DNA of 47,393 nucleotides, taken from NCBI GenBank assembly GCA_002084355.1, contig NBLL01000005.1, forward strand, positions 1-47,393, read 5' to 3'. The notes below the pieces were generated by a model. The model had not been told where the DNA came from and searched no databases. It was given only the letters and a program-made list of their open reading frames with translations. Position 1 is the stretch's first letter. Every line of letters starts with the position of its first letter. The translations under genes and the position numbers were made by a program. This DNA comes from Bacteroidetes bacterium 4572_128. Its GTDB lineage: Bacteria > Bacteroidota > Bacteroidia > Bacteroidales > 4572-128. Positions 1 to 47,393 of the stretch are shown here, in pieces.

Positions 1-275
1 AATAATTAAAAAAAAAAAATTTTTTTTCAAAAAACGCCAATTTTTTAATGTTTTTAATAATTTAAAAAAAAATTTTTTCCAAAAACGTCAATTTTTTAAT
101 GTTTAAAAAAAAATTTTTTCCAAAAAAACCAAAATTTTATGGTTTTTAATAATTTAAAAAAAATTTTTTTTCAAAAAACGCCAATTTTTTAATGTTTTTA
201 ATAATTAAAAAAAAAATTTTTTTCAAAAAAAACCAATTTTTTAATGTTTTTAATAATTTCAAAAAAAAATTTTTA
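1..275 (-). repeat. A/T-tract tandem repeat array, about 5 units
   Basis: Five to six imperfect units of about 50 bp are visible. On the plus strand each reads A-run, T-run, CAAAAAACGCCAATTTTTTA, then ATGTTTTTAATAATT. This is the reverse orientation of the family found across the window: core, then GAAAA/TTTT palindrome, then AATT spacer. The array lies just past the 3' end of the minus-strand beta-barrel gene. Its core (TTGGCG on the minus strand) matches the first part of the array at 20425. Confidence 0.85.
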
Positions 276-279
276 ATTT

Positions 280-931
280 TCAAAAGAACTTTCGTTTCGA
301 TTTTTTAATTCTTTTTTTTCTAACAAAAGGATTTTTAGAAATTTGTTTGAATTGATAACGCACAACTAAATAAATTCCAAAATTTACACTCCTCATAAAA
401 TCTTCTGATTCAGATTCAAAACTATTTCCATTATAATCAACTCCTTGCCAGTCAGTAAAACCTACATTTGTTCGAAAACCGATATTATAAACAATATTTT
501 GATTTAATTGAAATTCTCCACCTATTCCCAAAACACCAGAAAAACCAAAATTACTAAAAGTATCTTCAAAATTATCTCGAGATAAACCATCTTCTTCAAA
601 CCAAACTCTTCTTTTAATATTAAATGCAGTTCCGATTTCTGTATAAGCATGCTTAACTCTAAACCTAACAAGAACTGGAATAACTATAGTTTTTAAAACG
701 ATTCTATTTTCAGGATATGGATATTTCAAACGTATAGAATATCTTTGATTGGATTCACTTAATAAAAATTCTGTTTGCAAAGCAAAATTCCTTGTCCATT
801 GAAAACCAAACAATAAACCAAATTCACTTGCAAAAGTTGGTAAATAATCTACGGTATTATTTACCGTTGTTTTATTTGTCAATAACCAAGAAGTCATTAA
901 ATAATGTAAAAGTAAAAAGAAATTTTTTCAT
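280..931 (-). pseudogene. Outer-membrane beta-barrel (porin-family) protein, disrupted near its N-terminus
   Basis: The main frame (897 down to 280) encodes 205 residues with alternating aromatic/polar strands typical of small Bacteroidota PorT/OmpW-like barrels (for example FGLLFGFQWTRNFALQTEF). It ends in a basic tail (KKRIKKSKRKFF). It has no signal peptide of its own. Just upstream, an ATG at 931-929 starts MKKFLFTFTLF, which looks like the first half of a signal peptide, but in another frame. The simplest reading is one gene that has lost the segment joining the signal peptide to the barrel. It lies directly downstream of the glycosylphosphotransferase on the same strand, so it may close that transcription unit. 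Family membership is inferred from strand pattern and size, and the function is unknown. Confidence 0.6.
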
Positions 932-948
932 AATATATTTTTTAAATT

Positions 949-2364
949 TTATTTTCCGCTTCCTTTGAAAATTATCATCACAGTATAAATCATAATTTTA
1001 AAATCAGTATAAATGGACATATTTTCTATATAAATTATATCATATTTTAAACGCTCAACCATCTCTTTAACATTTTCTGCATAACCATATTTTACTTGTC
1101 CCCAGGAAGTTATTCCAGGTTTAACTTTTTGCAAATGATAATAATGCGGAGCAATTTTTGCAATTTTTTCTATAAAAAATTGTCTTTCCGGACGTGGTCC
1201 AACAAGAGACATATCACCAATTAAAACATTATAAAACTGCGGTGTTTCATCTAAACGCAATTTCCTCATAAAAAGTCCAAATTTTGTAATTCTAATATCT
1301 TTATCTTTCGATAAAGCTGGACCGTGTTTTTCGGCATCAATAAACATAGAACGAAATTTCCAAATAAAAAATGGTTTTCCATATTTACCAATTCTTTCTT
1401 GACCATAAAAAATTGGACCTTTCGAAGATAATTTTACACTTATCATTAAAAAAATATACAATGGAATTAATAAAATTAATGCAATAATTGAAAAAACAAT
1501 ATCTATAATTTTCTTTAAATTTTCTTGAAAAGTAGACATTAAATCATAAGAAATTTCTATTAATGGCGTAGTGAAAAAAGTTGTCATATTTGCTGTTCCC
1601 GTTAAAATATCATACATACTTGGAATAACTTTTATTATTAAATCATTTTTATAAAGTTTATTTAAAATATCACTGATATTTTTATGCTCGGAATTTTCTA
1701 TGGCAATAATTATTTCTTCTATTTTATATTCTTCAATAATTTTTTGCAAATTGCAAATTTCTCCAAGATGTTTTAAATTTTCTTTAAAAATAAATTTATT
1801 GGTTTTATTAATATTAATAAAACCAATAAATTTATTTCCAGACGATTGCTCTTGATTTTTAAATTCATTATAAATTTTAAATGCTTTTTTTCCATTTCCA
1901 ATCAATAAGGTATTAAAACCTATTTTTCTATATCTAAGTTTTTTAATAGTGTGATTTGTTATCAAAAAACGAGGAATATAAGTCAAAATAAAATGAAATG
2001 AAAATAATGCAAAAAAAGAATAATAATAATCCTTATAAGATACAATTGTGTCATCGAGAATTAACAAGAAGAAAATTATTATTACACCTGTCATAGAAAT
2101 GCTGATAGTTTGCCAAAGTTCTTTCAATCTGGATTTTCTATAAATTCTTTTATAATAACCATTTAAATAATATAAAATTAACCAAAAACACGGAATAGCA
2201 ATTAAAAAATAAAAATAGTTCTTTTTAAATTCTATAGGAATTTCATAGCCAAATTTTGCTGATTCTATATATATTTTTCTAAAAGCAAAAAATAAAATCC
2301 AAGCAACCAAAGAAGAAATTATATCAAAAATTAAATATTTAAAAATTTGACGATTTTTATTCAT
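949..2364 (-). CDS. Polyprenyl glycosylphosphotransferase (WbaP/EpsE-type sugar transferase)
   Basis: This 471-residue protein has four N-terminal membrane segments (about residues 9-130), a soluble Rossmann-like region (about 145-250), one more membrane helix (about 285-308) and a C-terminal bacterial sugar transferase domain. The C-terminal part shows the family motifs KFRSM, LDETPQFYNVL, DMSLVGPRPE and KPGITSWGQV. Such enzymes move a sugar-1-phosphate from a nucleotide sugar to undecaprenyl phosphate, the first step of exopolysaccharide or O-antigen assembly at the inner membrane. No glycosyltransferase cluster surrounds it. The only close neighbours are an upstream lipoprotein gene 9 bp away, probably co-transcribed, and the broken barrel gene downstream. 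The sugar specificity cannot be read from sequence. Confidence 0.9.
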   Translation of the reverse strand: MNKNRQIFKYLIFDIISSLVAWILFFAFRKIYIESAKFGYEIPIEFKKNYFYFLIAIPCFWLILYYLNGYYKRIYRKSRLKELWQTISISMTGVIIIFFLLILDDTIVSYKDYYYSFFALFSFHFILTYIPRFLITNHTIKKLRYRKIGFNTLLIGNGKKAFKIYNEFKNQEQSSGNKFIGFININKTNKFIFKENLKHLGEICNLQKIIEEYKIEEIIIAIENSEHKNISDILNKLYKNDLIIKVIPSMYDILTGTANMTTFFTTPLIEISYDLMSTFQENLKKIIDIVFSIIALILLIPLYIFLMISVKLSSKGPIFYGQERIGKYGKPFFIWKFRSMFIDAEKHGPALSKDKDIRITKFGLFMRKLRLDETPQFYNVLIGDMSLVGPRPERQFFIEKIAKIAPHYYHLQKVKPGITSWGQVKYGYAENVKEMVERLKYDIIYIENMSIYTDFKIMIYTVMIIFKGSGK

Positions 2365-2373
2365 TATTTTTTT

Positions 2374-3231
2374 TTAAAAATGTAATAATTTAAAATTATC
2401 CCAGTAAAATTTTGGTTCTATAATTTCATCTTCTTCGCCTTTTGCATAAGCAAAAAATAAATTATAAGTTTTTATTTCTGTATAGCTTTCGAAAGTTTGA
2501 GTTAAATTTATATAAATTTTATTCCAATTTTCTTTTTTATTTAGATAAATAACTGGAATTGTTTTTATAGACGTTTCGGTTTCATAAATTAACCCAATTA
2601 CAAATTCTGTATTATTTTTATAATTCATCTCTAAATAAGTTTCCGAGTAATTTGTTGGTTTCTCGAACTTATTTATAGTTTTGAATTGAAATAATGAATC
2701 TTCAATTTTAATTCTCGTAAAACCAGAATATTGTCCTTCGAAAACTGAGGAATCTATTTTTTCCATTAGAGAGGAGTTTGAATTTACAGTGTCTAAACTT
2801 ATTCCCGCAGATTCAAAATCTTCCATCCAATCAAAAATTGTTTCTTCTTTATAAGAAATTTTCGGTGATATTTTTGTTATTTTACTTGTTTCAAGAACTT
2901 TTTCTATTTCATAAGCTTCATAAAATGGGTAAATTGTACGACTGGCAGAAATTCCATTTTTTTTAATTCCAGCCTTTATAACAATTTTTTGCTCTCCTGT
3001 TTCCATAACAGGAAATTCTGCTGGCAATTCAAAAACACCTATAAAATTCCCATTAACACTTACCCAAGCATCTGTAATATTTTCTGATGCAGTACCTTGA
3101 TAATGAGAAGTTTGTAATTCTATCTTTTCAATATTTATATATGAAGGTATTTTTTCCTTTTCATCTATTTCGCAAGAATATAAAAGAATTATATAAAATA
3201 AAATAAAAATTTTTTTTTCAAAAAAACGCAT
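2374..3231 (-). CDS. Lipoprotein of unknown function
   Basis: A 285-residue protein begins with a lipoprotein signal: a basic start, a hydrophobic stretch and the lipobox LLYSC (Cys about residue 20), followed by an acidic EIDEKEK region. The rest is beta-rich. Residues about 40-110 resemble an Ig-like/carboxypeptidase-regulatory fold (DAWVSVNGNFIGVFELP), and the C-terminal half resembles a jelly-roll module ending FYWDNFKLLHF. It is likely a surface or periplasmic lipoprotein. It precedes the glycosylphosphotransferase by 9 bp on the same strand, so co-transcription is likely and an envelope role is plausible. No specific function is recognised. Confidence 0.75.
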   Translation of the reverse strand: MRFFEKKIFILFYIILLYSCEIDEKEKIPSYINIEKIELQTSHYQGTASENITDAWVSVNGNFIGVFELPAEFPVMETGEQKIVIKAGIKKNGISASRTIYPFYEAYEIEKVLETSKITKISPKISYKEETIFDWMEDFESAGISLDTVNSNSSLMEKIDSSVFEGQYSGFTRIKIEDSLFQFKTINKFEKPTNYSETYLEMNYKNNTEFVIGLIYETETSIKTIPVIYLNKKENWNKIYINLTQTFESYTEIKTYNLFFAYAKGEEDEIIEPKFYWDNFKLLHF

Positions 3232-3318
3232 TTTTTTTTAATTTTTTCAAATTTGTTTTTAAACGATTTTATTTTTTTTATATTTTAAAAAAAAAAAAAA
3301 TAATTAAAAAAAAAATAT

Positions 3319-3326
3319 TATTTTTG
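3319..3326 (+). promoter_or_regulatory. Bacteroidota -7 element for the Omp28-like gene
   Basis: TATTTTTG matches the TAnnTTTG -7 consensus of Bacteroidota primary sigma factors and lies about 28 bp before the ATG at 3354. No clear -33 TTG is visible in the A/T-only upstream DNA. Confidence 0.5.
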
Positions 3327-3353
3327 TAAAAATTCACAATTTTATATTTTTTT

Positions 3354-5047: not shown

Positions 5048-5064
5048 AATCTTTTTATAATTTT

Positions 5065-6725: not shown

Positions 6726-6729
6726 AAAA

Positions 6730-10189: not shown

Positions 10190-10530
10190 TTTTTAAAATA
10201 TTAAATTTTTGGACGAATTTGAAAATTTTTTTTTTATTTCAAAATAAAAAACATTAAAATTTCGGACGAATTTGAAAAAAAAATTTTTTTTTATTTCAAA
10301 ATAAAAAACATTAAAATTTTGGACGAATTAAAAAAAAAAATTTTTTTTATTTCAAAATAAAAAGCATTAAAATTTTGGACGAATTTGAAAAAAAAAATTT
10401 TTTTATTTGAAATTAAAATATTTAAAATTTTGGACGAATTTGAAAAAAAATTTTTTATTTCAAAATAAAAAACATTAAAATTTCGGACGAATTTGAAAAA
10501 AATATTGAAATTTTGGACGTTTTCTTTCTG
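10190..10530 (+). repeat. A/T-tract tandem repeat array, GGACGAATTTG core
   Basis: The core GGACGAATT occurs at 10211, 10264, 10321, 10377, 10432 and 10485, with a partial GGACG at 10515; spacings are 53-57 bp. Each unit is core, GAAAAAAAATTTTTTT, then ATTTCAAAATAAAAAACATT. Orientation is forward. The array fills the gap before pgi. Confidence 0.9.
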
Positions 10531-13664: not shown

Positions 13665-13739
13665 AAAAAAATATTTTAAAAAAAATTAATGTTTTTTTTT
13701 ATTAAAAAAAAAACAAATATTTTATGATTTTAAATATCA

Positions 13740-14045
13740 AATTTCATTAAAAAATTAACGTTTTTTGAAAAAAAAATTTTTTTAATTTAAAAGCATAAAA
13801 ATTTTGGCATTTTTTGAAAAAAAAAATTTTTTTTTAATTGAGATTAAAAAATATTGAAATTTTTGGACGAATTTTGAAAATTTTTTTTTAATTGAGATTA
13901 AAAAATATTGAAATTTTTGGACGAATTTTGAAAAAATTTTTTTTAATTGAAATTAAAATATTTAAAATTTTGGACGAATTTTGAAAAAAAATTTTTTTAT
14001 AAATTATAAAAAACGCCGAAATTTCAATATTTTTATAATTTAAAT
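13740..14045 (+). repeat. A/T-tract tandem repeat array with mixed cores and an inverted last unit
   Basis: Forward units have cores TTAACGTTTTTTG (about 13758), TTTGGCATTTTTTG (13806) and GGACGAATTTTG (13865, 13919, 13972). The final unit near 14012 reads AACGCCGAAATTTCAATA, the opposite orientation, so the array ends in an inverted copy. Spacing is 48-59 bp. It lies between two minus-strand genes. Confidence 0.85.
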
Positions 14046-15101: not shown

Positions 15102-15164
15102 ATTTTTATTTTAAATTAAAAAATAATTTTTTTCATAAAAAAACCCAAATTTTAAAATTAAAAA

Positions 15165-15270
15165 TTAAAATAAATTTTTTCAAAAAAATGCCAAAATTTT
15201 AATGCTTTTTATAATTAAAAAAAAAAATTTGAAAATTTTAAATTCATAAAAATTTTGCCATTTTTTTATT
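15165..15270. repeat. Head-to-head pair of A/T-tract repeat units
   Basis: A reverse unit (TTTTTTCAAAAAAATGCCAA then AATTTTAATGC, about 15176-15206) is followed by a forward unit (CATAAAAATTTTGCCATTTT, 15245-15264). The two cores are inverted copies of each other. The pair lies in the divergent promoter region between the MCE gene and rpsA. Confidence 0.7.
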
Positions 15271-17971: not shown

Positions 17972-19910
17972 ATGAATAAATTTATTTCACTATTTATTTT
18001 GATAGCTTTCTTTTTTTCTGAAAGTTACGCACAAGAAAAATTAACTCCCGAATTATTATGGAAATTAAGAAGACTTGGTTCTTCTGTAATTTCTGCAAAT
18101 CAAAAAGATGTTTTATTTTCTGTAAAAGATTACAAAGTTGAAGAAAACAAAGGAAAATCAACTTGGTATATTAAGAATTTAGAAACGAATAAAACCATTA
18201 CTTTACCTGAAGTAGAAGGCGGTCAGCATAGTTGTGTTTGGATAGATAAAGCTAATAAAATTGCTTTTTTATCTAAAAAAAGTGGCATTATGCAAATTTG
18301 GGAAATGGATAAAAATGGAAAGAATTTAACTCAAATTTCTGACGAAAAAGAAGGAATACAAAGTTTTTTATATTCTCCAAAAGAGAAGCATATTTTATTT
18401 GTAAAACGTGTAAAAATGGAGAAAACTGTTCAAGATATTTATCCGGATTTACCTCACGCTGAAGCAAGAATTATTGATGATTTGATGTATAGACATTGGG
18501 ACAGCTGGAGTGATTATAGTTATAATCATATTTTTGTTGCTTCGTATCAAAAGGGAGACATTAGCAATATAATAGATATTTTAAAAGATGAGCCTTATGA
18601 CAGTCCGATGATGCCATTTGGTGGATTAGAAGAAATTGCTTGGAGTAAAGACGGCAAACAAATTGCTTACACTTGCAAAAAAGAAAAAGGCAAAAAATAT
18701 GCAATGAGTACAAATTCAGAAATTTATTTGTATGATTTAGATTCTAAAAAAACAAGTAATTTGAGTAGCTGATAAAAAAAGAATAATGATTTATGATTTA
18801 CAAACTAAAAAGCGTGAAGATATTAGCAAAAAATTTGACCAAAATGCTGGTAGTTTAATTTGGAGTAAAGACAGTAAAAATTTATTTTTCATTACAGGAG
18901 TTCAGGCAACTTATCAAATTTTTTCTTATAATTTTGATAAAAAATCATTTAGACAAATTACTAATGGAGTTCATAATTATCGTTCTTTTGATTTGATAGA
19001 TGAAAAAACATTAATTGGAACGAAGCAATCTATGTCTATGCCTACAGAAATGTTTACGATAAATATTGCTGATGGAAAAGAGAAGCAAATTACTTTTTTG
19101 AATAAAAGTATTTTGGATAAAATTAAAATGGGAAAAGTTGAAAAACGTTGGGTAAAAACAACAGACGGAAAAGATATGCTAACATGGGTAATTTTTCCTC
19201 CGAATTTTGATAAAAATAAAAAATATCCTACTTTACTTTACGCTCAGGGTGGACCACAATCTGCAGTAAGTCAATTTTTTTCTTATCGTTGGAATTTTCA
19301 ATTAATGGCGGCTAATGATTATATTATTGTTGCTCCAAATCGTAGAGGTTTGCCAACTTTTGGGCAAGAATGGAACGACCAAATTAGTAAGGATTATGGC
19401 GGACAAAATATGAAAGATTATTTTAGTGCCATAGACGAATTAAAAAAAGAGCCTTATATTAATGAAAATAAAATGGGTGCAATTGGTGCAAGTTATGGTG
19501 GATTTTCTGTTTATTGGTTAGCAGGAAATCACGAAAAACGTTTTAAAACCTTTATTTCTCATTGCGGGATTTTTAATTTTGAAGCAATGTATGGTTCTAC
19601 CGAAGAGTTATTTTTTGTTGATTGGGATTTAGGAGGTTCATATTGGAATAAGCAAAAGAAAAATTCTTATGATGCTTCACCTCATAAATTTGTAAATAAT
19701 TGGGACACACCGATTTTAGTTGTTCACGGACAAAAAGATTTTCGTATTCCGGTAACACAAGGAATGAATGCTTTTACCGTAGCTCAATTAAAAAATATTC
19801 CAAGTAGATTTTTGTATTTTCCAAAGGAAGGACACTGGGTTTTATCCCCGCAAAATGGAATTTTATGGCACAGAGTATTTTTTGATTGGTTAGAAAGAGA
19901 TTTAAAATAA
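17972..19910 (+). pseudogene. S9-family (acylaminoacyl/dipeptidyl-like) peptidase, disrupted in the propeller
   Basis: The start is at 17972 (MNKFISLFILIAFFFSESYA, a signal peptide), not the in-frame start 33 codons earlier. Residues about 25-266 are beta-propeller blades. The frame stops at 18772 after YLYDLDSKKTSNLSS. A second frame from 18769-18771 continues ADKKRIMIYDLQTKKREDIS and runs to 19910, with the hydrolase triad: GASYGG serine, Asp in HGQKDFRIP and His in PKEGHW. Relatives carry about 35 residues (a GMMGY ... FSPDGKxIAW ... stretch) between those points; they are absent here, and the joint is out of frame. Apart from that, both halves are well conserved. Intact, it would be a secreted or periplasmic peptidase. 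Confidence 0.85.
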
Positions 19911-20424: not shown

Positions 20425-21385
20425 TTGGTGTTTTTTGAAAAAAAAAATTTTTTTTTAATAATTTAAAATCATTAAAAATTGGCGTTTTTTGAAAAAAATT
20501 TTTTTAATAATTTAAAATCATAAAAAATTGACGTTTTTTGAAAAAAATTTTTTTTTTAATGATTTAAAAATCATAAAAAATTGACGTTTTTTGAAAAAAA
20601 ATTTTTTTTTAATAATTTAAAATCATTAAAAATTGACGTTTTTTGAAAAAAAATTTTTTAATAATTTAAAATCATTAAAATTTTGGCGTTTTTTGAAAAA
20701 AATTTTTTTTCAAAAATTTAAAATCATTAAAATTTTGGACGAATTTTGAAAAAAATTTTTTTCAATTGAAATTTAAAAAATCTTAAAATTTTGGACGAAT
20801 TTTGAAAAAAATTTTTTTTAATTGAAATTTAAAAAATATTAAAATTTTGGACGAATTTTGAAAAAAATTTTTTCAATTGAAATTTAGAAAAAAATTTTTT
20901 CAATTGAAATTTAAAAAATATTAAAATTTTGGACGAATTTTGAAAAAAATTTTTAATTGAAATTTAAAAAATATTAAAATTTTGGACGAATTTTGAAAAA
21001 AATTTTTTTTAATTGAAATTTAAAAAATATTAAAATTTTGGACGAATTTTGAATTTTTTAACACCAATGTTTGTTTTATGATTTTTGTAAAAACATTAAA
21101 ATTTTGGACGAATTTTGAAAAAAATTTTTTTTAATTGAAATTTAAAAAACATTAAAATTTTGGACGAATTTTGAAAAAAAATTTTTTTATTTTTAATTGA
21201 AATTTAAAAAATAGTATCCGCTCATTATAGTATGGTAAATTTCAATTTTTTGCATTTTACAAAAAACGTAACAACCTTAAAATCAAAGCTTTATGGTTTT
21301 TATTTTTTGTTTTTTGAAAAAATTTTTTTTAATAATTTAAAATCATAAAAAATTGCCATTTTATTGAAAAAAAAATTTTACGACT
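20425..21385 (+). repeat. Longest A/T-tract tandem repeat array, about 16-17 units, two core types
   Basis: The first units have the core TTG(G/A)CGTTTTTTG (20481, 20530, 20583, 20635, 20685). From 20737 the core switches to GGACGAATTTTG (20737, 20793, 20849, 20931, 20984, 21040, 21106, 21162). Spacing is 49-57 bp except for two longer steps. Interruptions without the motif lie at about 21055-21085 and 21210-21300. The array fills the gap between a plus and a minus gene that converge, and I see no coding sequence in it. Confidence 0.92.
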
Positions 21386-24654: not shown

Positions 24655-24958
24655 TTAATTTTCAAATAAAAAGTCATGAAATTTTGGGCATTTTTAAAAT
24701 TAAAATTATTAAAATTTTGGACGAATTTGAAAAAAAATTTTTTTTATTTTGAAATTAAAAATTATTAAAATATTTTTTTAAATTATAAAAATTCATAAAA
24801 AATTGGCATTTTTTCAAAAATATTTTTTTTTTAATTATAAAAATTCATAAAATAATTGATGTTTTTTGGAAAATCTTTTTTATAAATTCGTAAAATTTTG
24901 GCGTTTTTTGGAAATAAATTATTTCAATATACAAACCCAAAAAATTGACATTTTTTTG
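24655..24958 (+). repeat. Degenerate A/T-tract repeat array
   Basis: About five forward units have diverse cores: TTTGGGCATTTTTA (about 24685), GGACGAATTTG (24719), TTGGCATTTTTTC (24804), TTGATGTTTTTTGG (24858) and TTGGCGTTTTTTGG (24898). The A-run/T-run element is partly eroded. It lies between the acyltransferase gene and the restriction-enzyme-like remnant. Confidence 0.7.
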
Positions 24959-24961
24959 AAA

Positions 24962-25269
24962 AATTTTAGGTTTGTAAGCTTGAAAAATTTTAATATGTAC
25001 AAAAGCATCGTATGTTTCAAAAAATAAATCAGAACCTATAGTGATGAATTTGGTATTCCAAATTGATTAAATAACCAAAAATAAATTCTTTCTGCACCTT
25101 TTGCAAAATCAGAATTTTTATTAGAACTTTTTCTAAAAACATTTCAATTATCTATAATTTTATCTTTAGAAATTAAAGCATCCATCATTTTAGAAATATC
25201 TTGTTTTATTGTAAATTCTATTTGATTTAGATAATGATTTTCCCAAAATTAGATTTCTTTTTTTATCAT
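24962..25269 (-). pseudogene. Truncated remnant resembling a restriction endonuclease
   Basis: From an ATG at 25269 the minus strand reads MIKKEI, stop, FWENHYLNQIEFTIKQDISK, MMDALISKDKIIDN, stop (TGA), NVFRKSSNKNSDFAKGAERI, YFWLFNQFGIPNSS. After a one-base shift it continues PIGSDLFFETYDAFVHIKI. The last part looks like the region leading to a nuclease active site (usually HIDIKT) in type II restriction enzymes; this match is from memory and not certain. Two stops, a frameshift and loss of the C-terminal half before a repeat array show that it is dead. No methyltransferase gene remains. Beyond the array and this remnant, the 800-bp gap holds nothing else I can support. Confidence 0.45.
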
Positions 25270-26489: not shown

Positions 26490-26718
26490 ACATTTTTTAA
26501 ATCTAATTAAAAAAAAATTTTTTTCAAAAAATGCCGAAATTTTAACTTTTTTTAATTTTAATGTTTTTTAATTTCAATTAATAATTTTTTCAAAAAATGC
26601 CAAAATTTTCAACAAATTTCAATTTCAATTAAAAAAAATTTTTTTCAAAAAATGCCGAAATTTTCAACAAATTTCAATTTCAATTAAAAAAAAATTTTTT
26701 TCAAAAATGCCCAAAATT
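26490..26718 (-). repeat. A/T-tract tandem repeat array, ATGCCGAAATTTT core
   Basis: Four reverse-orientation units are seen: A-run, T-run, CAAAAAATGCC(G/A)AAATTTT, then AATTTCAATT spacers. Cores lie near 26529, 26597, 26650 and 26705. The array sits between two minus-strand genes, immediately past the 3' end of the methyltransferase gene. Confidence 0.85.
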
Positions 26719-27612
26719 TTAAATTTTTTCTAAAACAAAAAACATATATTTTTTTTCTTCCAAAAATTTATTTGGGTCAATTCCAGATAATTCTTTATCA
26801 AATTTTTTATCTACCGATGAACGCAAATCTTCACTTATATTATATAACCAAGGCTTTTTATATTTTAATTTTTCACTTGCATAATTTATTACAGGTTTTA
26901 AAATTCTTTCCGCATACATATTTACAAATTTTAAAGTGGGCATAATATTTTCTGTAATATCTTTTACATAAGATATTTTCCAATTTTTTTCTATTGTCTT
27001 TTTGATAAAATCGTTCAAAAAATGTCCAGATTTATTTTTTCCTTCTTTTTTTATTCTAAAATAATCTACAATTATCCATTTTCCATTATCAAGCAAAATT
27101 TTATCTAAAATTTCAAAAGACTTGTCTAAGTTTATGTATTGAAAAGATTCTGCATTAATTACAGTTCCAAATTTTTTTTCCGAGCTAAAATCCTCAAATT
27201 TTAAATTATGACATAAAAATTTATTCCCGTATTTTTTTAAAATATATTCAAATTGATTATTATCTGGAGTTAATGCCTCTACTTTTAAATTATTTTTCAA
27301 AAGTAAATTCGCCAAAGCACCCATACCACAACCAACATCCAAAATTGCTAAATCTTTTTTTGTAATTTTTCCAATAATAATTTCCAAATATTTTAATTGC
27401 GCATCTTCTATTTGTTTGATAGAAATTGTTTCAGGAGCAATATCTTTATTTTCAAAATATCCATAATGAAGAGAGTCATTTTCAAGAATTTGAGAATATA
27501 ACATCAATTCAAGATCTTTTCTTTCTTTAACATGTTTTTTTTGATTTTTTTGATATTTTATAGCTTTTACTATTTTCAAGGGGTTTAAAAAATTTTTTAA
27601 TAATTTGTTCAT
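26719..27612 (-). CDS. SAM-dependent methyltransferase (class I, CFA/sterol-type)
   Basis: This 297-residue protein has a basic N-terminus. HYGYFEN appears about residue 54, then the SAM-binding motif LAILDVGCGMGALANLLL (about 93-110) and later ESFQYINLDKSFEILDKILL and GKWIIVDYF. The layout resembles cyclopropane-fatty-acid synthase or small-molecule methyltransferases that act on lipid or quinone-like substrates. The substrate cannot be stated. It stands alone, with repeats downstream and the dksA-like gene divergent upstream. Confidence 0.82.
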   Translation of the reverse strand: MNKLLKNFLNPLKIVKAIKYQKNQKKHVKERKDLELMLYSQILENDSLHYGYFENKDIAPETISIKQIEDAQLKYLEIIIGKITKKDLAILDVGCGMGALANLLLKNNLKVEALTPDNNQFEYILKKYGNKFLCHNLKFEDFSSEKKFGTVINAESFQYINLDKSFEILDKILLDNGKWIIVDYFRIKKEGKNKSGHFLNDFIKKTIEKNWKISYVKDITENIMPTLKFVNMYAERILKPVINYASEKLKYKKPWLYNISEDLRSSVDKKFDKELSGIDPNKFLEEKKYMFFVLEKI

Positions 27613-31770: not shown

Positions 31771-31786
31771 AATAAATAAATTTTTA

Positions 31787-31794
31787 CAAAAATA
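31787..31794 (-). promoter_or_regulatory. -7 element for sucC
   Basis: On the minus strand this reads TATTTTTG, a match to TAnnTTTG, about 17 bp upstream of the ATG at 31770. Confidence 0.5.
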
Positions 31795-31799
31795 AGATT

Positions 31800-32430
31800 T
31801 ATTTTAAATAAAAAAAATTTTTTCAAAAAATTGGCAAATTTTTAATGTTTTTTAATTTAAAAAAAAATTTTCGAAAAAAACGACAAAATTTTTAATGTTT
31901 TTAATTTTAAATTAAAAAAAATTTTTTTTAAATTCGTCCAAAATTTTAATGTTTTTTAATTTCAAAAAAATTTTTTTTTATAATTTGTCAAAAATTTTAA
32001 TGCTTTTTAATTTGAAATTAAAAAAATTTTTTTCAAATTCGTCCAAAATTTTAATGTTTTTTAATTTCAAAAAAAAAAATTTTTATAATTTGCCAAAAAT
32101 TTTAATGCTTTTTAATTTCAATGAAAAAAAAATTTTTTTAAATTCGTCCAAAATTTTAATGCTTTTTAATTTCAAAAAAAAATTTTTTTATAATTTGCCA
32201 AAAATTTTAATACTTTTAATTTGAAATTAAAAAAAATTTTTTTCAAATTCATCCAAAATTTTAATTAATTTCAAAAAAATTTTTCGAAAAAACGACAAAA
32301 TTTTTAATGTTTTTAATTTCAAATTAAAAAAAAATTTTTTTCAAAAAACGACCAAAATTTTAATATTTTTTAATTTAAGAAATTAAAAAATTTTTTCTAA
32401 AAACTACCAAAATTTCAATATTTTTTTTAA
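31800..32430 (-). repeat. A/T-tract array with a 105-bp dimeric higher-order repeat
   Basis: About eleven reverse-orientation units fill the divergent gap between sucC and nnr. Inside it two unit types alternate. Type A (ATTCGTCC core) starts at 31932, 32037, 32142 and 32247 (ATTCATCC). Type B (TAATTTGTC or TAATTTGCC core) starts at 31981, 32086 and 32191. A-to-A and B-to-B distances are exactly 105 bp, A-to-B is 49 and B-to-A is 56. Flanking units (AATTGGC, AAACGAC, AAACTACC cores) are single-type. A 92-codon open frame across it is a by-product of the 105-bp period. Confidence 0.92.
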
Positions 32431-32447
32431 TTTTGAAAAAAAAAAAG

Positions 32448-33924: not shown

Positions 33925-34015
33925 ATTAAAAAAAAAATCGTTTTTGGAAGAAAATTTTTTTTCGAAATTAATTTTCAAAACGTTTTTTGTAAAAAAAATT
34001 TTTTTTTAATAAATT
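33925..34015 (+). repeat. Short pair of A/T-tract repeat units
   Basis: Two diverged units (ATCGTTTTTGGAAGAAAATT about 33937, and AAACGTTTTTTGTAAAAAAA about 33979) have the core/A-run/T-run order in forward orientation. They fill the gap between nnr and gpsA. Confidence 0.55.
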
Positions 34016-34024: not shown

Positions 34025-35158
34025 ATGGAATACGAATTTAAAATAGATTCAAATTCTCAGGAAGCAAAACGTTTGGTAGAATTTTTGAAAACTTTAACTT
34101 ACGTAAAAGAAGAATCAAAATCTCCGGAAAAAAAAGAAATTTATAAATCTTTTGATTATAAAAATTCAAAAATAGCGGTAATAGGAGGCGGAAGTTGGGC
34201 AACAGCAATAATAAAAATGTTGTTAAATAATGTTGATAAGAATAATAAAATAAATTGGTTTTTACGAGAGAAAAAATCTATAGACTTTATTAAAAAATTC
34301 AAAAAGAATCCTCGTTATTTGCGTTCTGTAAAATTAGATACGGATAAAATTGTTTTTTTTGAAAATATTGAAGAAATTATAAAAAAATCTAATATTTTAA
34401 TTTTTGTTATTCCGTCAGCATTTTTGAAAAGTTCTTTAGAATTTTTGAAAATAAATTTAAAAGATAAATTTATTGTTTCTGCAATCAAAGGAATAATTCC
34501 TGAAGATAATACAATTATTGCAGAGTTTTTTCAAAATGAATATAAAGTTCCTTTATCATCTATAGCTGTGATTTCTGGACCTTGTCATGCTGAGGAGGTC
34601 GCCCTAGAAAAACTTTCATATTTGACTATCGCTTCAAAAGATCTAAATAAAGCACAATTTATTTCTGAGAAACTTAGCTGTCGCTATATAAAAAGTTCCA
34701 TTTCTGATGATATTTTCGGAACAGAATACTCTTCTGTTTTAAAAAATATTTTTGCCATTGCTTCTGGAATTTGTAAAAGTTTGGGCTACGGTGATAATTT
34801 CCAAGCAGTTTTGATTTCTAATGCTATACAAGAAATAGAAAATTTTGCAAATACAGTTCATCCGATAAGTAGAGACATAAAAAATTCGGCTTATTTGGGA
34901 GATTTATTAGTTACCTCTTATTCTCAGTTTTCCAGAAATAGAACTTTTGGAGCAATGATAGGAAAAGGATATTCTGTAAAATCGGCACAATTAGAAATGA
35001 ATATGATTGCAGAAGGATATTATGCTTTATATTGCATACACAAAATAAATAAAAAATTTAATGTGGAAATGCCAATTACAGAAAGCGTTTATAGAATAAT
35101 TTACAAAAAAAAAGATGCCGCAATAGAAATAAAAAATTTAACAGCCTATTTAAAATAA
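34025..35158 (+). CDS. gpsA: Glycerol-3-phosphate dehydrogenase (NAD(P)+) with N-terminal extension
   Basis: This 377-residue protein is about 45 residues longer than usual. The NAD-binding Rossmann motif KIAVIGGGSWATAI begins near residue 49. FVSAIKG-type FIVSAIKGI, ISGPCHAEEVA, the catalytic KN region YSSVLKNIFAIASGI and AYLGDLLVT complete the enzyme. It makes sn-glycerol-3-phosphate for phospholipids. Residues 1-45 (MEYEFKIDSNSQEAKRLVEF, then LKTLTYVKEESKS) resemble the small beta-helix antitoxin-like or DUF2683-like proteins common in Bacteroidota. Internal in-frame ATG codons near the Rossmann start are lacking, so the extension appears translated. Confidence 0.93.
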   Translation: MEYEFKIDSNSQEAKRLVEFLKTLTYVKEESKSPEKKEIYKSFDYKNSKIAVIGGGSWATAIIKMLLNNVDKNNKINWFLREKKSIDFIKKFKKNPRYLRSVKLDTDKIVFFENIEEIIKKSNILIFVIPSAFLKSSLEFLKINLKDKFIVSAIKGIIPEDNTIIAEFFQNEYKVPLSSIAVISGPCHAEEVALEKLSYLTIASKDLNKAQFISEKLSCRYIKSSISDDIFGTEYSSVLKNIFAIASGICKSLGYGDNFQAVLISNAIQEIENFANTVHPISRDIKNSAYLGDLLVTSYSQFSRNRTFGAMIGKGYSVKSAQLEMNMIAEGYYALYCIHKINKKFNVEMPITESVYRIIYKKKDAAIEIKNLTAYLK

Positions 35159-35227: not shown

Positions 35228-35455
35228 TTCAAAATAAAAATAAAAAAAATTTTTTTCAAAATTCGTGAAAATTTTAATATTTTTTAATTTCAATTAAAAA
35301 AATTTTTTTCAAAAATCGTGAAAATTTTAATATTTTTTAATTTCAATTAAAAAAAATTTTTTTCAAAAATCGCGAAAATTTTAACATTTTTTAATTTCAA
35401 TTTTTTTTTTTTTTCAAATTCTTCCAAAATTTTAATATTTTAAAATTGGTTTTTT
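35228..35455 (-). repeat. A/T-tract array, TTCACGAATTT-type core, inverted relative to the array beyond the next gene
   Basis: Reverse units are A-run, T-run, CAAAATTCGTGAAAATTTTA, then ATATTTTTTAATTTCAATT. Cores are TCGTG at about 35263 and 35316 and TCGCG at 35370, followed by a TTCTTCC variant near 35420. Spacing is 53-54 bp. It lies upstream of the GWxTD gene. Confidence 0.88.
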
Positions 35456-35510
35456 AAATTATTTTTTAAATTTGTATAATTTTTGTATATATTTAAAAAA
35501 AATATTAATT

Positions 35511-36938
35511 ATGAAAAAAAAAATTATTTTTATAATATGTTTGTTTTTTTTTGCAAATTTTACTTTTGCAGAGAAATTACAATCATATTTTAATATAAGA
35601 ACTTTCAAAACTTTAGAAAGTCCTTATTTGGAAAGTTATTTAAGCGTAATTGGAAATTCTGCCGTTTTTGTTAAGAAAGAAAATGGTAAATACCAAGCTG
35701 TTTTGGAAGTAACAATTATTTTCAAAGAAAATGGAATTATAAAAAATTTCAAAAAATATCAATTAACAAGTCCAGAAATTAAGAATAAAAATTCTTATAA
35801 ACCAAATTTTATTGATGTGCAGCGCTTTGTTTTGGAAAATGGAATTTATAATTACGAATTAAAAATCATAGATGTAAATGCAGAAAAATCTGAAATTAAT
35901 TATAAAAATATTTTAAACTTAGATTATAGAAGTAATCTCGTACAATTTTCTGACATTCAATTAATAGAAAGTTTTTCTAAAACAAAAAAAGAAAACGTTT
36001 TAAGTAAAAATTCTTATGATTTAATTCCTTATATTTCTGATTTTTACCCAGAAAATATTAATAAATTAATTTTTTACGCAGAAATTTATAATACAGATAA
36101 ATATCTTGCAAAAGAAGAGAATTTTTTAATTCGCTATTTTATAGAAAGATCTGATAAAGAAATTATTTTGAATAAATATGTTTCTTTTTTTAAAAGGAAA
36201 TCTGCTTCTATTATTCCAGTTTTTGCTGAATTTAATATAGAAAATCTGCCGTCTGGAAATTATAATCTTGTAATAGAAGCGAGAAATAGAAAAAATGAAT
36301 TATTAAAATCTAAAAAATTCATTTTTCAAAGAAGTAATATAAAAAAAGATAATTTGATATTTGAGGCAAGCAAAGAAAATTTAAATTCTTCTTTTGTTAC
36401 TCAAATTAATGATGCAGAAATTTTAAAAGAAAATATAAAATGTTTATATCCAATTTCTTCTGAAATAGAAAAAAACTACGCAAATAACATAATTAAATTA
36501 AATGATATTGAAAAAATGCAAAATTATTTTTATGTTTTTTGGTATAAAAGAGATGAAAAAAATTATGAAAAATTATGGAATAATTATAAAAAACGTGTAG
36601 ATTTTGTAAATAATTCTTACAGCACACAAGTTAAAAAAGGTTATTATACAGATAGAGGGCGAATTTATTTGCAATATGGAAGTCCAAATTCTGTGATAGA
36701 AAGTAAACACGAGCCGAGTTCGTATCCTTATGAAATATGGCATTATTACAGATTAGAAGACCAAACAAATAAACGTTTTGTTTTTTACAATCAATTTATA
36801 GTTGGAGATGAATATACTTTAATTCATTCTAATGCAAAAGGAGAATTTAGCAATAGAAACTGGGAAGTTATCTTGCAAAGTAGAAACGAAATGAGAACAG
36901 ACCACGACAGAACAAATTCACTAAATTTTAAAACATAA
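35511..36938 (+). CDS. GWxTD-domain protein
   Basis: The start is at 35511 (MKKKIIFIICLFFFANFTFA, signal peptide); the in-frame start 13 codons earlier would spoil the signal sequence. The protein is 475 residues. The middle is beta-rich (about 30-290), and residues about 370-460 form the GWxTD domain (GYYTDRGRIYLQYGSPNSVI, EIWHYYRLEDQTNKRFVFYN). This domain is named for a motif found in Bacteroidota and related phyla; its biochemical role is unknown. Repeat arrays with the same private core flank the gene in inverted orientation. No lesion is visible. Confidence 0.88.
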   Translation: MKKKIIFIICLFFFANFTFAEKLQSYFNIRTFKTLESPYLESYLSVIGNSAVFVKKENGKYQAVLEVTIIFKENGIIKNFKKYQLTSPEIKNKNSYKPNFIDVQRFVLENGIYNYELKIIDVNAEKSEINYKNILNLDYRSNLVQFSDIQLIESFSKTKKENVLSKNSYDLIPYISDFYPENINKLIFYAEIYNTDKYLAKEENFLIRYFIERSDKEIILNKYVSFFKRKSASIIPVFAEFNIENLPSGNYNLVIEARNRKNELLKSKKFIFQRSNIKKDNLIFEASKENLNSSFVTQINDAEILKENIKCLYPISSEIEKNYANNIIKLNDIEKMQNYFYVFWYKRDEKNYEKLWNNYKKRVDFVNNSYSTQVKKGYYTDRGRIYLQYGSPNSVIESKHEPSSYPYEIWHYYRLEDQTNKRFVFYNQFIVGDEYTLIHSNAKGEFSNRNWEVILQSRNEMRTDHDRTNSLNFKT

Positions 36939-36939
36939 A

Positions 36940-37275
36940 TATTAAAATTTTCACGAATTTGAAAAAAAATTTTTTTTTAAATTGAAATTAAAAAATATTA
37001 AAATTTTCACGAATTTGAAAAAAAATTTTTTTTTAAATTGAAATTAAAAAATATTAAAATTTTGGGCGAATTTGAAAAAAAATTTTTTAAATTGAAATTA
37101 AAAAATATTAAAATTTTGGGCGATTTTTGAAAAAAATTTTTTTTAATTGAAATTAAAAAAATATTAAAATTTTGGGCGATTTTTAAAAAAAATTTTTTTT
37201 AATTGAAATTAAAAAAATATTAAAATTTTGGGCGATTTTTGAAAAAATTTTTTTTTTTAATTTAAAAATTATTGA
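36940..37275 (+). repeat. A/T-tract array, TCACGAATTTG then GGGCGATTTTTG cores
   Basis: Forward units have cores TCACGAATTTG (36951, 37007), TGGGCGAATTTG (37063) and TGGGCGATTTTTG (37117, 37173, 37229). Spacing is 54-56 bp. The TCACGAATT core is the reverse complement of the core upstream of the GWxTD gene. Confidence 0.9.
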
Positions 37276-42541: not shown

Positions 42542-42593
42542 AAATTAAAAAAAACATCAAATTTTGTAAAAATTTTTTTTATAAATAAAAAAA

Positions 42594-43016: not shown

Positions 43017-43018
43017 AA

Positions 43019-44594
43019 ATGAGAAAGTTACTTACAATAATAGGGGCAATTGCGTTAATTATATTCATCAGAGTAATTTTTATACAAGCAGATGATATTT
43101 CTGAAGATAAAGGAAAGACAAATGAAAGTCTTATAGAAAAGCTTGTAAATTATAAATGGGTAAATTATTCTGACGGTTATTATACCACTCGCAGTGCAAA
43201 AAAACTCAAACCTGAAGAAACAGTAGAACGTTATAAAACTTTTACTTTTAAAGAAGAAAAAAATATTTTTATTATGGATTCTGTAAAACAGCGTTTTACA
43301 GGAAAATGGAAAATAAAAAATAAAAAAATTTATTTATATTTTGACATAAAAAAAGTTGTTCATCTAAGTAAAAATACTGATCCTAATTCTATGTCGAATG
43401 CTTATTCTACATTATCCGAAAATTTAAAATTAAAAAATAGAGTTGCAACCGTCGAAGGAGATATAATGAAAAGTAGCGATGGTTTTACTTATGAAAAATA
43501 TGACCCATCTTATGCAGGATTAGTAAATTTCTTTGAATTTTCTGGATTTGCAAATGCAAAAATGGGACATTTTATTATGATGCTTGTTGGTATTTTTTTC
43601 ATTTTTTTAGCTATAAAATATGATTACGAGCCACTTCTTTTAATTCCAATTGGGACAGGTATTTTAATGGGAAATATTCCTATGTTTCAGGCGATAGATT
43701 TCAATTTGAAATTAGGGATTTATGAGCCGGGTAGTGTGATGAATTATTTATATCAAGGAGTTGTACAAGGTTGGTATCCGCCTTTGATTTTTCTTGGAAT
43801 AGGTGCGATGACAGATTTTTCTTCTTTGATTTCAAATCCTCGTCTAATGTTGCTTGGTGCAGCAGCACAAATTGGAATTTTTGCAACATTTCTCGGTTCT
43901 TTATTACTTGGTTTTGCTCCACAAGAAGCAGGAGCAATAGGAATTATTGGGTCCTATTGCCATAGCCGCTTATTCTTATATGGCACTTGTTCCAGTAATT
44001 CAGCCGCCTATAATAAAACTTCTTACAACTAAAGAGGAAAGAAAAATTAAAATGAAACCTCCGAGAGCAGTTTCAAGGTTAGAAAAAATTATGTTTCCAA
44101 TAGTTGGGTTACTACTGACAACTTATATTTCACCGACTTCTTTACCGCTTTTGGGAATGTTATTTTTTGGAAATTTATTAAAAGAATCGGGTGTTACGAA
44201 ACGTCTTGCAGATACTTCCAGCAATGCTTTGATTGATACTATTAATATTTTACTTGGAATCACAGTTGGAGCATCTACTCAGGCAGATGTATTTTTGACT
44301 TATGATTCTATTTTAATTTTCATATTAGGAGCACTTGCTTTTATGGTTGCGACGGCAGGAGGAGTAATTTTTGCTAAAATTATGAATTGGTTATCTCCAA
44401 AAGACAATCCAATAAATCCTATGATAGGAGCAGCAGGAGTTTCAGCTGTGCCTGATAGTGCCAGAGTGGTACAAATGGAAGGTTTAAAAGCTGACCCTTC
44501 TAATCATTTATTAATGCATGCTATGGCACCAAATGTTTCTGGAGTAATTGGTTCAGCAGTTGGAGCTGGTATATTGTTAAGCTTTTTAATGTAA
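43019..44594 (+). pseudogene. mmdB: Sodium-pumping decarboxylase beta subunit (OadB/MmdB) with N-terminal domain, disrupted
   Basis: The N-terminus has a hydrophobic segment and an unusual extracytoplasmic beta domain of about 140 residues (YKWVNYSDGYYTTRS ... FTGKWKIKNKKIYLYFDIK). From about residue 165 the OadB membrane core begins (GHFIMMLVGIFFIFLAIKYD, LGIGAMTDFSSLISNPR, EAGAIGIIG). The frame then fails at about 43950. The other frame resumes PIAIAAYSYMALVPVIQPPI and runs through GAAGVSAVPDSARVV and NVSGVIGSAVGAG to 44594. The segment G-ADGPT...KLAPxLLG, which is strictly conserved and near the Na+/carboxylate site, is missing. Intact, it couples decarboxylation of carboxybiotin to Na+ export. 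Confidence 0.9.
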
Positions 44595-44598
44595 ATTA

Positions 44599-44636
44599 AA
44601 AAAAAATTCCAATTAATTTAATTGGAATTTTTTTTT
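44599..44636 (+). terminator. Operon terminator
   Basis: AAATTCCAATTAA pairs with TTAATTGGAATTT, followed by a long T run, 5 bp after the mmdB stop. Confidence 0.92.
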
Positions 44637-44693
44637 ATTTAATATTAAAATATTTAATTTCTTTTGAATTAAATTATAATAATATTAAATAAT

Positions 44694-44721
44694 TTGACAT
44701 TTTTGAAAAAAATTATCTTTG
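44694..44721 (+). promoter_or_regulatory. Strong Bacteroidota promoter
   Basis: TTGACA begins at 44694 and TATCTTTG lies at 44714-44721, with 17 bp between TTG and TATCTTTG. The start codon of the small gene is 28 bp downstream. This is among the best promoter matches in the window. Confidence 0.65.
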
Positions 44722-44748
44722 TATTTTATTTCAAAAAAATATAACAAA

Positions 44749-44953
44749 ATGAAGAAAAAAGTAATAAATCAAAGAGAAGCATTAAAATTAATGCAAGAAA
44801 GAAAAAATATAAGTTTATTTTCATTGAATTTAATGACGAATAATAGACGAATTGGAAAATATTTATTTTATTCATAAAGGAATTAATGTTCCTAAGCATT
44901 TAATTTATTGTGAGATATCAGATAGCATTTATATCTATAATCAAAAAGAATAA
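44749..44953 (+). pseudogene. Small disrupted gene
   Basis: Frame one (44749-44877) reads MKKKVINQREALKLMQERKN, ISLFSLNL, then loses sense. Another frame from 44846 reads DELENIYFIHKGINVPKHLI, YCEISDSIYIYNQKE, stop at 44953. Together they look like one protein of perhaps 80-100 residues with a short loss near 44840. No family is recognised. It has a strong promoter of its own. The stretch from 44954 to 45150 holds only scattered A/T repeats. Confidence 0.5.
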
Positions 44954-45009
44954 AAAAAAAAAAATCATTAGAATTAATGAGGAAATATTTTAATGTGAAA
45001 ATTATACAA

Positions 45010-45316
45010 TAAAAATTTATTAAAACATTAAAATTTTTTGGACAATTTTTGAATATGAATATAAATGAAAAAAATTAAAACATTATTACATTCCTCATTA
45101 TTCATCTATGTCTTGCGGTGTTTTTACAGACATTATTAAATTTAAATATTAAAATTTTGAACTATCTTTGAAAAAACAACGAAATTTTTAAATTTTTTAT
45201 TTGAATTAAAAAAAAAATATTCCCCAAAAAACAGCAATTTTTTAATGATTTCTTATAATTTTATAAAAATTTTTTTTCATAAAAACGGCAATTTTTTAAG
45301 ATATTTTATAATTTTT
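45010..45316. repeat. Eroded A/T-tract repeats ending in an inverted copy of the downstream array unit
   Basis: Two eroded forward units (TTTTTTGGACAATTTTTG near 45035; TTTTGAACTATCTTTG near 45155) precede reverse units (CCAAAAAACAGCAATTTTTT near 45224). The last reverse unit (45251-45316) matches, in reverse complement, the unit of the array at 46870 over about 36 bp with one clear mismatch. Confidence 0.75.
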
Positions 45317-45359
45317 AGTAAAAATAAAATTTTATTTAATTTGTTATAAAGAATATATT

Positions 45360-46868
45360 ATGAAAAGACTACATTTATTTATTATAAAATCTTATTTAGG
45401 ACCATTTTTTTTAACATTTTTCATTTCATTATTTTTATTGCTAATGCAATTTTTATGGAAATATATAGATGAATTAGTTGGAAAAGATTTAGATACAAGT
45501 ATTATTTTAGAATTATTATTTTATGCTTCTGCTGGTCTGGTTCCTATGGCTTTACCTCTTGCAATTTTGCTTGCTTCCATTATGACTTTTGGAAACCTTG
45601 GTGAAAACTATGAATTAATAGCATTAAAATCCTCTGGAATTTCTTTATTTCGTTTAATGTTTCCGTTAATAATTCTTATAACAATTTTGAGTATCTCTGC
45701 ATTTTTTTATTCAAATAATATGTTGCCTTTTACAAAGTTAAAAATGTCAGCACTTCTTTGGGACATAAAACATCAAAAACCAGAATTAAGTATTCAAGAA
45801 GGAATTTTTTCTAATGAAATAGACGGTTTTAGTATAAAAATAAACAAAAAAGACAAAAAAACAGGAAAATTATATGGGATTTTAATTTATGACCACACAA
45901 AAAGAAATGGAAACAAAAATGTAACAATTGCTGATTCTGGATTGATGAATTTAACAAAAGACGGTTCAGCTATGGTTTTGACTTTATTTAATGGAGTAAA
46001 TTACGCAGAAGAAAAAGATAAAAAAAATAATAGAAAAAATAGAACTTATCCTCATAGAAAAGATAAATTTGATGAAGAAAAAATTTTTTTTAAATTAAAA
46101 GGTGTTGGATTCGAACGAACAGATGAAAATCTTTTTAGTCAAAATTATCAAATGCTAACTATCAAACAATTAATAAAAGCAGAAGATTCTTTGTCCAAAG
46201 TTTTAAACAATAGAAAAAAAAAAGTAAAAGAAAATTTATTGAAAAATAATTATTTTAGAAGAAATATAAGAAAAGATAAAAAATTTAGAAATATAAAAAA
46301 TAATGTCAAAAAAGAAGAAAATAATTTTTTAGATACAATTAAAAAAAATGAAATTAAAGAAAAAAATTATTTTAATTTTGTAGATTTTTATAATGAATTG
46401 GATGAAAAAACTTATAATAAAGTTATGAAAGTGGCTTTAAATTATGCACGTTCAACTAAATCTTATGTAACAAACAGTAAAGAAGATTTATTATATAGAG
46501 AGAAAATAATTCGAAAACATAAATCACAATGGCATTTAAAATTTACACTTTCTTTTGCTTGTTTTGTTTTCTTTTTTATAGGTGCTCCTCTTGGAGCAAT
46601 TATTAGAAAAGGTGGTTTGGGAATGCCTGTTGTAGTTTCTATTTTATTTTTTGTTGTTTATTATATGCTTTCTATTTCTGGAAAAAAACTTGCTATAGAA
46701 GAAGTTTTAGAAACTTATCAAGGAATGTGGTTGTCATCAGCAGTTTTGTTTCCTGTTGGAATTTTTCTGACTTATAAAGCAGCAACAGATTCTGTGATTT
46801 TAAATATAGAAATATATTTAGAACTATTTAAAAAAGTTAAAAAAAAGTTAAAAATTTTTAAATTATAA
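45360..46868 (+). CDS. LptF/LptG family LPS export permease
   Basis: This 502-residue protein has three N-terminal helices (about 12-30, 58-80, 100-122) and three C-terminal ones (about 400-490). The coupling-helix motif LKSSGISLFRLMFP and the start MKRLHLFIIKSYLGPFFLTF are typical. The periplasmic region is about 100 residues longer than in the paralogue at 11966 and contains a highly charged, Lys/Asn-rich insertion (about 215-370) that looks disordered. With LptB and the other permease it would extract lipopolysaccharide from the inner membrane. Inverted copies of one repeat unit flank the gene. Confidence 0.87.
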   Translation: MKRLHLFIIKSYLGPFFLTFFISLFLLLMQFLWKYIDELVGKDLDTSIILELLFYASAGLVPMALPLAILLASIMTFGNLGENYELIALKSSGISLFRLMFPLIILITILSISAFFYSNNMLPFTKLKMSALLWDIKHQKPELSIQEGIFSNEIDGFSIKINKKDKKTGKLYGILIYDHTKRNGNKNVTIADSGLMNLTKDGSAMVLTLFNGVNYAEEKDKKNNRKNRTYPHRKDKFDEEKIFFKLKGVGFERTDENLFSQNYQMLTIKQLIKAEDSLSKVLNNRKKKVKENLLKNNYFRRNIRKDKKFRNIKNNVKKEENNFLDTIKKNEIKEKNYFNFVDFYNELDEKTYNKVMKVALNYARSTKSYVTNSKEDLLYREKIIRKHKSQWHLKFTLSFACFVFFFIGAPLGAIIRKGGLGMPVVVSILFFVVYYMLSISGKKLAIEEVLETYQGMWLSSAVLFPVGIFLTYKAATDSVILNIEIYLELFKKVKKKLKIFKL

Positions 46869-46869
46869 A

Positions 46870-47393
46870 ATATCTTAAAAAAAATGCCGTTTTTATGAAA
46901 AAATTTTTTTTTTAAATTATAAAATATCTTAAAAAAATGCCGTTTTTATGAAAAAAATTTTTTTAAATTATAAAATATCTTAAAAAAATGCCGTTTTTAT
47001 GAAAAAAATTTTTTTAAATTATAAAATATCTTAAAAAAATGCCGTTTTTATGAAAAAAAATTTTTTTAAATTATAAAATATCTTAAAAAAATGCCGTTTT
47101 TTATGAAAAAAATTAAATTATAAAATATCTTAAAAAAATGCCGTTTTTATGAAAAAATTTTTTTTTTAAATTATAAAATATCTTAAAAAAATGCCGTTTT
47201 TATGAAAAAAATTTTTTTTTTTAATTATAAAATATCTTAAAAAAATGCCGTTTTTTATGAAAAAAAATTTTTAATTATAAAATATCTTAAAAAAAAATGC
47301 CGTTTTTATGAAAAAAAATTTTTTTTTTAATTATAAAATATCTTAAAAAAATGCCGTTTTTATGAAAAAAAAATTTTATAAATTATAAATTAT
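46870..47393 (+). repeat. Highly regular A/T-tract array, ATGCCGTTTTTATG core, 10 units
   Basis: Core ATGCCGT starts at 46884, 46937, 46988, 47039, 47091, 47138, 47191, 47245, 47297 and 47351. Spacings are 51-54 bp apart from one of 47, where the T-run is missing. Each unit is AAATTATAAAATATCTTAAA, then core, then GAAAAAAATTTTTTTT. Units are nearly identical outside the homopolymers, so the expansion is recent. It runs off the window end. Confidence 0.95.

Follow-up and report, generated by a model that had tools for sequence, protein, structure and literature searches.

The MIRU of mycobacteria consist of tandem units of about 50-100 bp, which are intergenic, directional and found at many (i.e., tens of) loci. 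For the Bacteroidales, BrickBuilt of Porphyromonas gingivalis has been described, which comprises 19 copies of a 23-nt unit together with a MITE leader, a tail and inverted-repeat ends (PMC4596501). The TAACTGA direct repeats are based on a heptamer that, in the studied genome, mostly lies immediately before start codons (PMC4679880). With regard to gene order, Portiera, the endosymbiont of the Aleurolobini whitefly lineage, shows rearrangement that goes along with the loss of dnaQ (PMC7821994).

We studied a window of 47,393 nucleotides, i.e., one whole contig (C85) of the Bacteroidota draft genome G000 (2.6 Mb, 151 contigs, 73% complete), and related it to further contigs of this genome as well as to the sister species G001, a congener with a 91% complete draft. 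Both are fragmented metagenome drafts. Their intergenic DNA holds a satellite that is, like MIRU, tandem, intergenic, directional and dispersed, and its head-to-tail units at many intergenic loci place it in the broad class of dispersed intergenic minisatellites (MIRU-like). In contrast to the tens of MIRU loci, 226 arrays are found in about a quarter of the G000 genome, and they differ in sequence and carry an A-run/T-run palindrome; membership in the mycobacterial MIRU family itself is implausible for a Bacteroidales unit of 24% GC that is absent from 395 other genomes of the phylum. BrickBuilt is also a tandem minisatellite of Bacteroidales that is always intergenic and restricted in its hosts (PMC4596501), but the units studied here are 43-59 bp long and far more numerous, and no constant ends were seen at the arrays of the window. 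TAACTGA repeats are likewise abundant, short, tandem and intergenic and have been reported from some Bacteroidetes, too, but differ in unit and position (PMC4679880). Portiera resembles our genomes in its AT-richness, its enlarged repeat-bearing intergenic regions and its extensive rearrangement (PMC7821994); unlike Portiera, the sister species keeps two DnaQ-type domains, MutS and MutL, the genomes measure 2.6-3.4 Mb, and the breaks are marked by a single satellite family. Among the papers searched for satellites between genes of Bacteroidetes and for repeats located at breakpoints, none describes this repeat.

Read in core-to-A/T direction, a unit is composed of a lead rich in A that frequently reads AAAAAYATTAAAATTTT and ends in AAAATTTT or AAAAAAAT, a short GC-containing core, 4-7 A/T positions, a G, a run of the form A5-10 T5-12, and an AT spacer. 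GGACG is the commonest core, next to GGCG, GACG, GCCG, GGGCG, CACG and others. Short AT inverted repeats enclose the core (AAAATT TTGGACG AATTTT), and their arms co-vary above shuffled partners when one unit per array is considered (0.695 vs. 0.650, z 4.8). Within the intergenic DNA of the window, we count 76 A5+T5+ runs, compared to a mean of 39 and a maximum of 51 among 30 third-order Markov copies, while the mirror T5+A5+ runs are depleted (6 vs. 24). Unit spacing is broad (43-59 bp, with modes near 46 and 56) rather than sharply confined to the about 50-57 bp given by the original prediction.

To count units, we used a profile trained on 120 G000 units (G001 was left out of training) and searched without speed filters, applying a cut-off of at least 14 bits for the G000 sample and of at least 12 bits for the arrays of the window. 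Genes were called as simple long open reading frames with a composition filter, i.e., not with a trained gene finder. In the 673 kb of the G000 sample, 1137 units were found, 1116 of which are intergenic, compared to just 5 units in a third-order Markov copy of 153 kb of G000 intergenic DNA; units are thus far commoner than in shuffled sequence. Their density is 7.3 per kb between genes vs. 0.04 per kb within genes (about 180-fold gene avoidance), where both values lean high since contigs were picked partly for holding units. The arrays make up 9.7% of this sample and about 43% of its intergenic DNA. For the sister species, which had no part in the training, 393 units were detected in 311 kb, again with a low density in genes (0.05 per kb). 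A strict two-unit pattern is matched 172 times in G000 and 113 times in G001, while 39 further genomes from the order and 395 from the phylum yield no match. The unit also has no match in viral contigs. As far as the compared genomes go, the satellite thus appears to be restricted to the genus.

The original prediction of a single kind of directional intergenic satellite, with a GC-containing core followed by an A-run/T-run and avoiding genes, therefore holds genome-wide: the satellite is confirmed, very abundant, genus-specific and of a known broad kind. Its finer claims fared less uniformly. Of the 14 arrays proposed for the window, 13 are recovered by the unit model (Table 1), while the one at 33925 finds no support. 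Nearly all gaps above 200 bp were expected to be filled; this is so for those longer than 500 bp (87/98 with a unit in G000), but the fraction drops to 46/66 at 300-500 bp and 15/38 at 200-300 bp.

Table 1. Satellite arrays located in the window, with strand, composition and supporting evidence.
Positions	Strand	Array	Evidence and context
11..254	-	5 units	unit model; tandem repeat 12-274, period 52; contig end
6737..7036	+	6 units, core TGTCG	unit model and tandem repeat; after ABC-type ATPase gene
10193..10523	+	7 units, core GGACG	unit model and tandem repeat
13738..14038	+	6 units, mixed cores, final unit reversed	unit model and tandem repeat
15118..15212	-	degenerate, 2 units	unit model; divergent gap
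20425..21379	+	composite, 15 units, GACG/GGCG cores then GGACG	unit model and tandem repeat
24698..24966	+	5 units	unit model; gene order broken vs. sister species
26508..26731	-	4 units	unit model; gene order broken vs. sister species
31808..32427	-	12 units	unit model and tandem repeat; divergent gap
35241..35446	-	4 units	unit model; between genes 34025-35158 and 35472-36938
36937..37258	+	6 units, core GGGCG	unit model; begins at stop codon of GWxTD-domain gene
45018..45309	.	weak, 4 units, mixed direction	unit model
46867..47379	+	10 units, core GCCG	unit model and tandem repeat; contig end

Units of an array mostly point the same way (116 uniform arrays vs. 20 mixed). The view that cores are homogeneous within arrays stands for neighbouring units, which share their core in 55% of the cases vs. 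13.5% for random pairs, but not for arrays as a whole: only 13/97 are fully core-uniform and several, e.g., 20425-21379, change the core type midway. Since cores are array-specific, arrays probably grow and become partially homogenised in place by slippage or unequal crossing over, with the satellite seemingly tolerated only between genes. Unrelated arrays align at about 70% identity, with a median local match of 73 bp. For one array that sits in conserved gene order (C88 in G000, C87 in G001), the two species agree over 450 bp at about 98-100% identity, i.e., more than for a flanking protein (93%), which suggests a recent exchange or conversion. Within the window, an open frame of 91 codons with 12% GC (31949-32224) lies entirely inside a satellite array, and gene finders may annotate spurious proteins such as this one within arrays.

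We also compared the gene order of G000 and G001 based on 175 pairs of reciprocal best protein hits (median identity 95%), scoring whether a gene has the same neighbour in both species, with N-containing gaps removed and each G000 gap taken once. Bacteria with proteins 95% identical normally retain a largely intact gene order. Where neither species has an array, 94/107 neighbours are conserved (13 broken). For gaps in which at least one of the species has a unit, this holds for 9/81 only (72 broken, p-value 7e-28 vs. array-free gaps). That is, neighbourhoods are broken in clear excess at arrays between the two drafts, something the original prediction had not foreseen. Order is broken just as often whether arrays are present in G000 only (17/18), in G001 only (18/21) or in both (47/52). 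The G001 sample, which reached up to 1.29 Mb, is enriched in array-bearing contigs; this alters the number of array gaps seen, not the broken fraction among them. For opposite-strand neighbours (i.e., without operons) with both gaps of at least 80 bp, we find 4 conserved and 35 broken with arrays vs. 13 and 2 without, and when each neighbour is required to reach 150 residues, 8 conserved and 61 broken with arrays vs. 71 and 6 without. The contrast is thus not just a matter of operon conservation. Several such subsets were tried and all show the same direction.

The breaks leave a pattern at the gene edges. In 45/55 broken cases, the array direction at the orthologous gene edge is kept while the far neighbour has changed, which holds for 3' edges (25/29, p-value 4e-5) as well as for 5' edges (20/26, p-value 0.003). 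Whenever the sister species offered a placement for both flanks, the best-fitting switch point falls within the array or at its edge. In the window, the genes beside the arrays at 35241 and 36937 lie mid-contig on different G001 contigs (C252, C87 and C236), e.g., genes 34025-35158 and 35472-36938 are found on C252 and C87, respectively. For the array at 36937, the change of neighbours could be fully traced, with both new neighbours found. Within units, the exact crossover points have ambiguity ranges too wide to be placed, and no concentration at cores is seen. Only 19/55 flanks have a whole unit inside the aligned stretch, and the decay of flank identity (global alignment, strict local matches) is informative for no more than the first tens of bases given the baseline of about 70%. 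The regularity of arrays in broken vs. conserved gaps gives no comparison, as conserved arrays are too few. Continuity of replichores across arrays, screened by third-position skew, gave no clear signal, even within blocks.

Gene blocks between arrays hold on average 2.7 genes. We consider it somewhat better than even that the arrays of this dispersed lineage-specific satellite act as portable homology at which gene blocks recombine. As the same directional sequence flanks most small gene blocks, an in-register crossover between two arrays would give the blocks new neighbours without separating a gene edge from its own array and array direction. Kept direction along with a changed far neighbour is the remnant to be expected from in-register crossovers between pre-existing arrays. 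That the breaks are mostly biological we regard as probable, and we infer that RecA-type exchange between arrays is the simplest agent for them. MutS is present in both species and an intact MutL in G001, and mismatch repair (MutS, MutL) should slow exchange between arrays that are 75-87% alike. Array turnover without recombination could also erase the similarity of flanks. As causes of the rearrangement, neither the loss of mismatch repair (MutS and MutL are present in the better genome, G001) nor the loss of dnaQ (G001 has two DnaQ-type exonuclease domains) is supported there.

The satellite may be real and the broken gene order still result from misjoins through arrays during short-read assembly or scaffolding, which is the main rival reading, though we take it to be the less likely one. 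The absence of any repeated 111-mer within the G000 sample suggests a short-read graph assembly, such that false joins are possible, and misjoins via shared unit sequence would likewise preserve direction. Contigs, including the window, terminate in arrays. The three odd-length N runs of G000 are all near arrays, and in the sister species, where 28 N runs have length 100, 18/30 N runs are. Furthermore, G000 shows seams with lost bases inside genes: frame changes affect 41/180 of its genes (23%) vs. 3/198 in G001 (1.5%) and stem from losses of about 35-125 bp at seams with little microhomology. Within the window, such losses relative to the sister species occur at 18766, 21730, 25949, 31081 (sucC-like gene) and 33373; they look like draft seams, and the window's apparent pseudogenes are not trustworthy. 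The sharing of exact sequence between different arrays is double-edged, i.e., when comparing a quarter of the genome, 41-mers in common with other arrays occur in 98/226 arrays, but sharing is rare at 77 bases (8/226) and nil at 127. As a single case, the window's array at 31771-32432 has no near-identical copy genome-wide; no other genome site exceeds about 84% identity to it. Dropping every gap that contains N leaves the contrast unchanged, and misjoining would have to affect about 90% of arrays in two independent assemblies (see 17/18 and 18/21 above), although assemblers normally stop at ambiguity. Finally, the nearly identical C88/C87 array with its conserved gene order demonstrates that arrays can assemble correctly. 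A relaxed constraint, under which the same long gaps simply accommodate both rearrangement and repeat growth without any promoting role of the repeat, appears unlikely to us. It would fit the avoidance of genes and short gaps by the arrays, and the effect of arrays is not completely disentangled from that of gap length, given that only 6 array-free cases remain when the gap has to reach 150 bp in each species (4 conserved, 2 broken). On the other hand, array-free opposite-strand gaps of at least 80 bp are mostly conserved (13/15), and the direction kept at gene edges across the break is unlike random breakage.

Functional readings of the units themselves fared poorly, including those of the original prediction. 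That arrays are nucleoid-protein binding or bending sites, i.e., A-tract arrays whether phased or not, we consider doubtful. The order of an A-run followed by a T-run favours narrow-groove A-tracts, and it is this order that is enriched, with the reverse being depleted. Arrays are also predicted to be mildly more curved than shuffled DNA (end-to-end length 0.80-0.81 vs. 0.88, using a wedge model). However, the value of a phased A-tract control is much lower (0.32), unit spacing is broad and off multiples of the helical repeat, and jittering the spacing leaves the predicted curvature unchanged. The proposed helically phased bending is thus not borne out, and we dismissed the class of helix-phased curved DNA, for which neither a spacing near multiples of 10.5 bp nor a spacing-dependent curvature was found. 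A role as directional transcription terminators or 3'-end signals is very improbable, even though convergent gaps hold arrays most often (41/68) and co-directional arrays in G001 lean with the gene direction (24 vs. 7). Divergent gaps hold arrays as often (33/81) as co-directional ones (92/238), in G000 52 arrays of co-directional gaps agree with the genes and 40 oppose, and the RNA of units is no stabler than shuffles (z 0.06, 1.34, -0.02). The observation that the array direction follows the adjoining 3' end applies to the window, but genome-wide 98 arrays beside a stop codon agree and 76 oppose, such that the predicted 3'-end use is not supported. Judged by gap orientation, RNA folds and direction at stop codons, the repeat was not assigned to intrinsic terminators; Rfam gave no match in the window. 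Equally improbable is a mobile or recombinase-borne element (REP/RAYT, MITE, or a tyrosine-recombinase site that shuffles blocks). The co-varying AT inverted-repeat arms around the core would suit it, as would the array-specific core, since overlap regions of recombinase sites can be of this kind, but the arm co-variation is confounded with subfamily structure. Tyrosine recombinases (PF00589) are absent from both drafts, while they are present in 18/19 other genomes of the order, and a REP-type transposase is missing in G000 and represented by one decayed copy in G001. Among defined classes, we accordingly set aside tyrosine-recombinase sites and integron cassettes (no PF00589 in either draft) as well as REP/BIME with RAYT (no Y1_Tnp in G000, one decayed in G001, and units that fold like shuffles). 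MITE-type constant ends were not seen at the arrays of the window.

Returning to recombination between arrays, the association with breakpoints would be a novelty, provided that long reads bear it out. Gene order looks nearly randomised at a single intergenic repeat class and intact elsewhere. If confirmed by long reads, this would provide a natural system for the effects of a satellite seam on chromosome order, operon integrity and replication, and it would join two questions, namely why gaps are filled with satellites in AT-rich lineages and how order can change fast without gene loss. If it is an artefact, it is a warning against reading gene order across such arrays in AT-rich metagenome genomes. 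A far-reaching version, which we hold to be speculative and rather improbable, is that blocks of about 3 genes bounded by directional arrays are continuously reshuffled in register after XerC/XerD-type dimer resolution was lost, such that a chromosome-wide seam would combine fluid order with protected genes. With PF00589 lacking in the drafts (73% and 91% complete), XerC/XerD were not found there; a loss of dimer resolution would be unusual at a genome size of 2.6-3.4 Mb.

Besides the satellite, we observed a second repeat in or beside arrays. It forms a hairpin (AACATTGGWGGTT...AACCWCCAATGTT) that frequently occurs twice around TTGATGTCGAA, and it folds 9 standard deviations better than shuffles. 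The G000 sample holds 44 copies and G001 holds 48, all at most 120 bp away from a satellite unit, while most arrays are without it. Example sites are L008:11300-12700, L011:2842-3014 and 10241-10419, and L016:2337-2640; in the window, the array 20425..21379 includes a single arm of the element near 21064. Further small motifs are located at array ends, i.e., a hairpin GTGCGGTG..CACCGCAC or CACCGCAGATT and also GTTTGTACAGGTT / AACCTGTACAAAC, which are found, e.g., in L011 near 10419, in L012 near 1370-1554 and in L008 near 16930.
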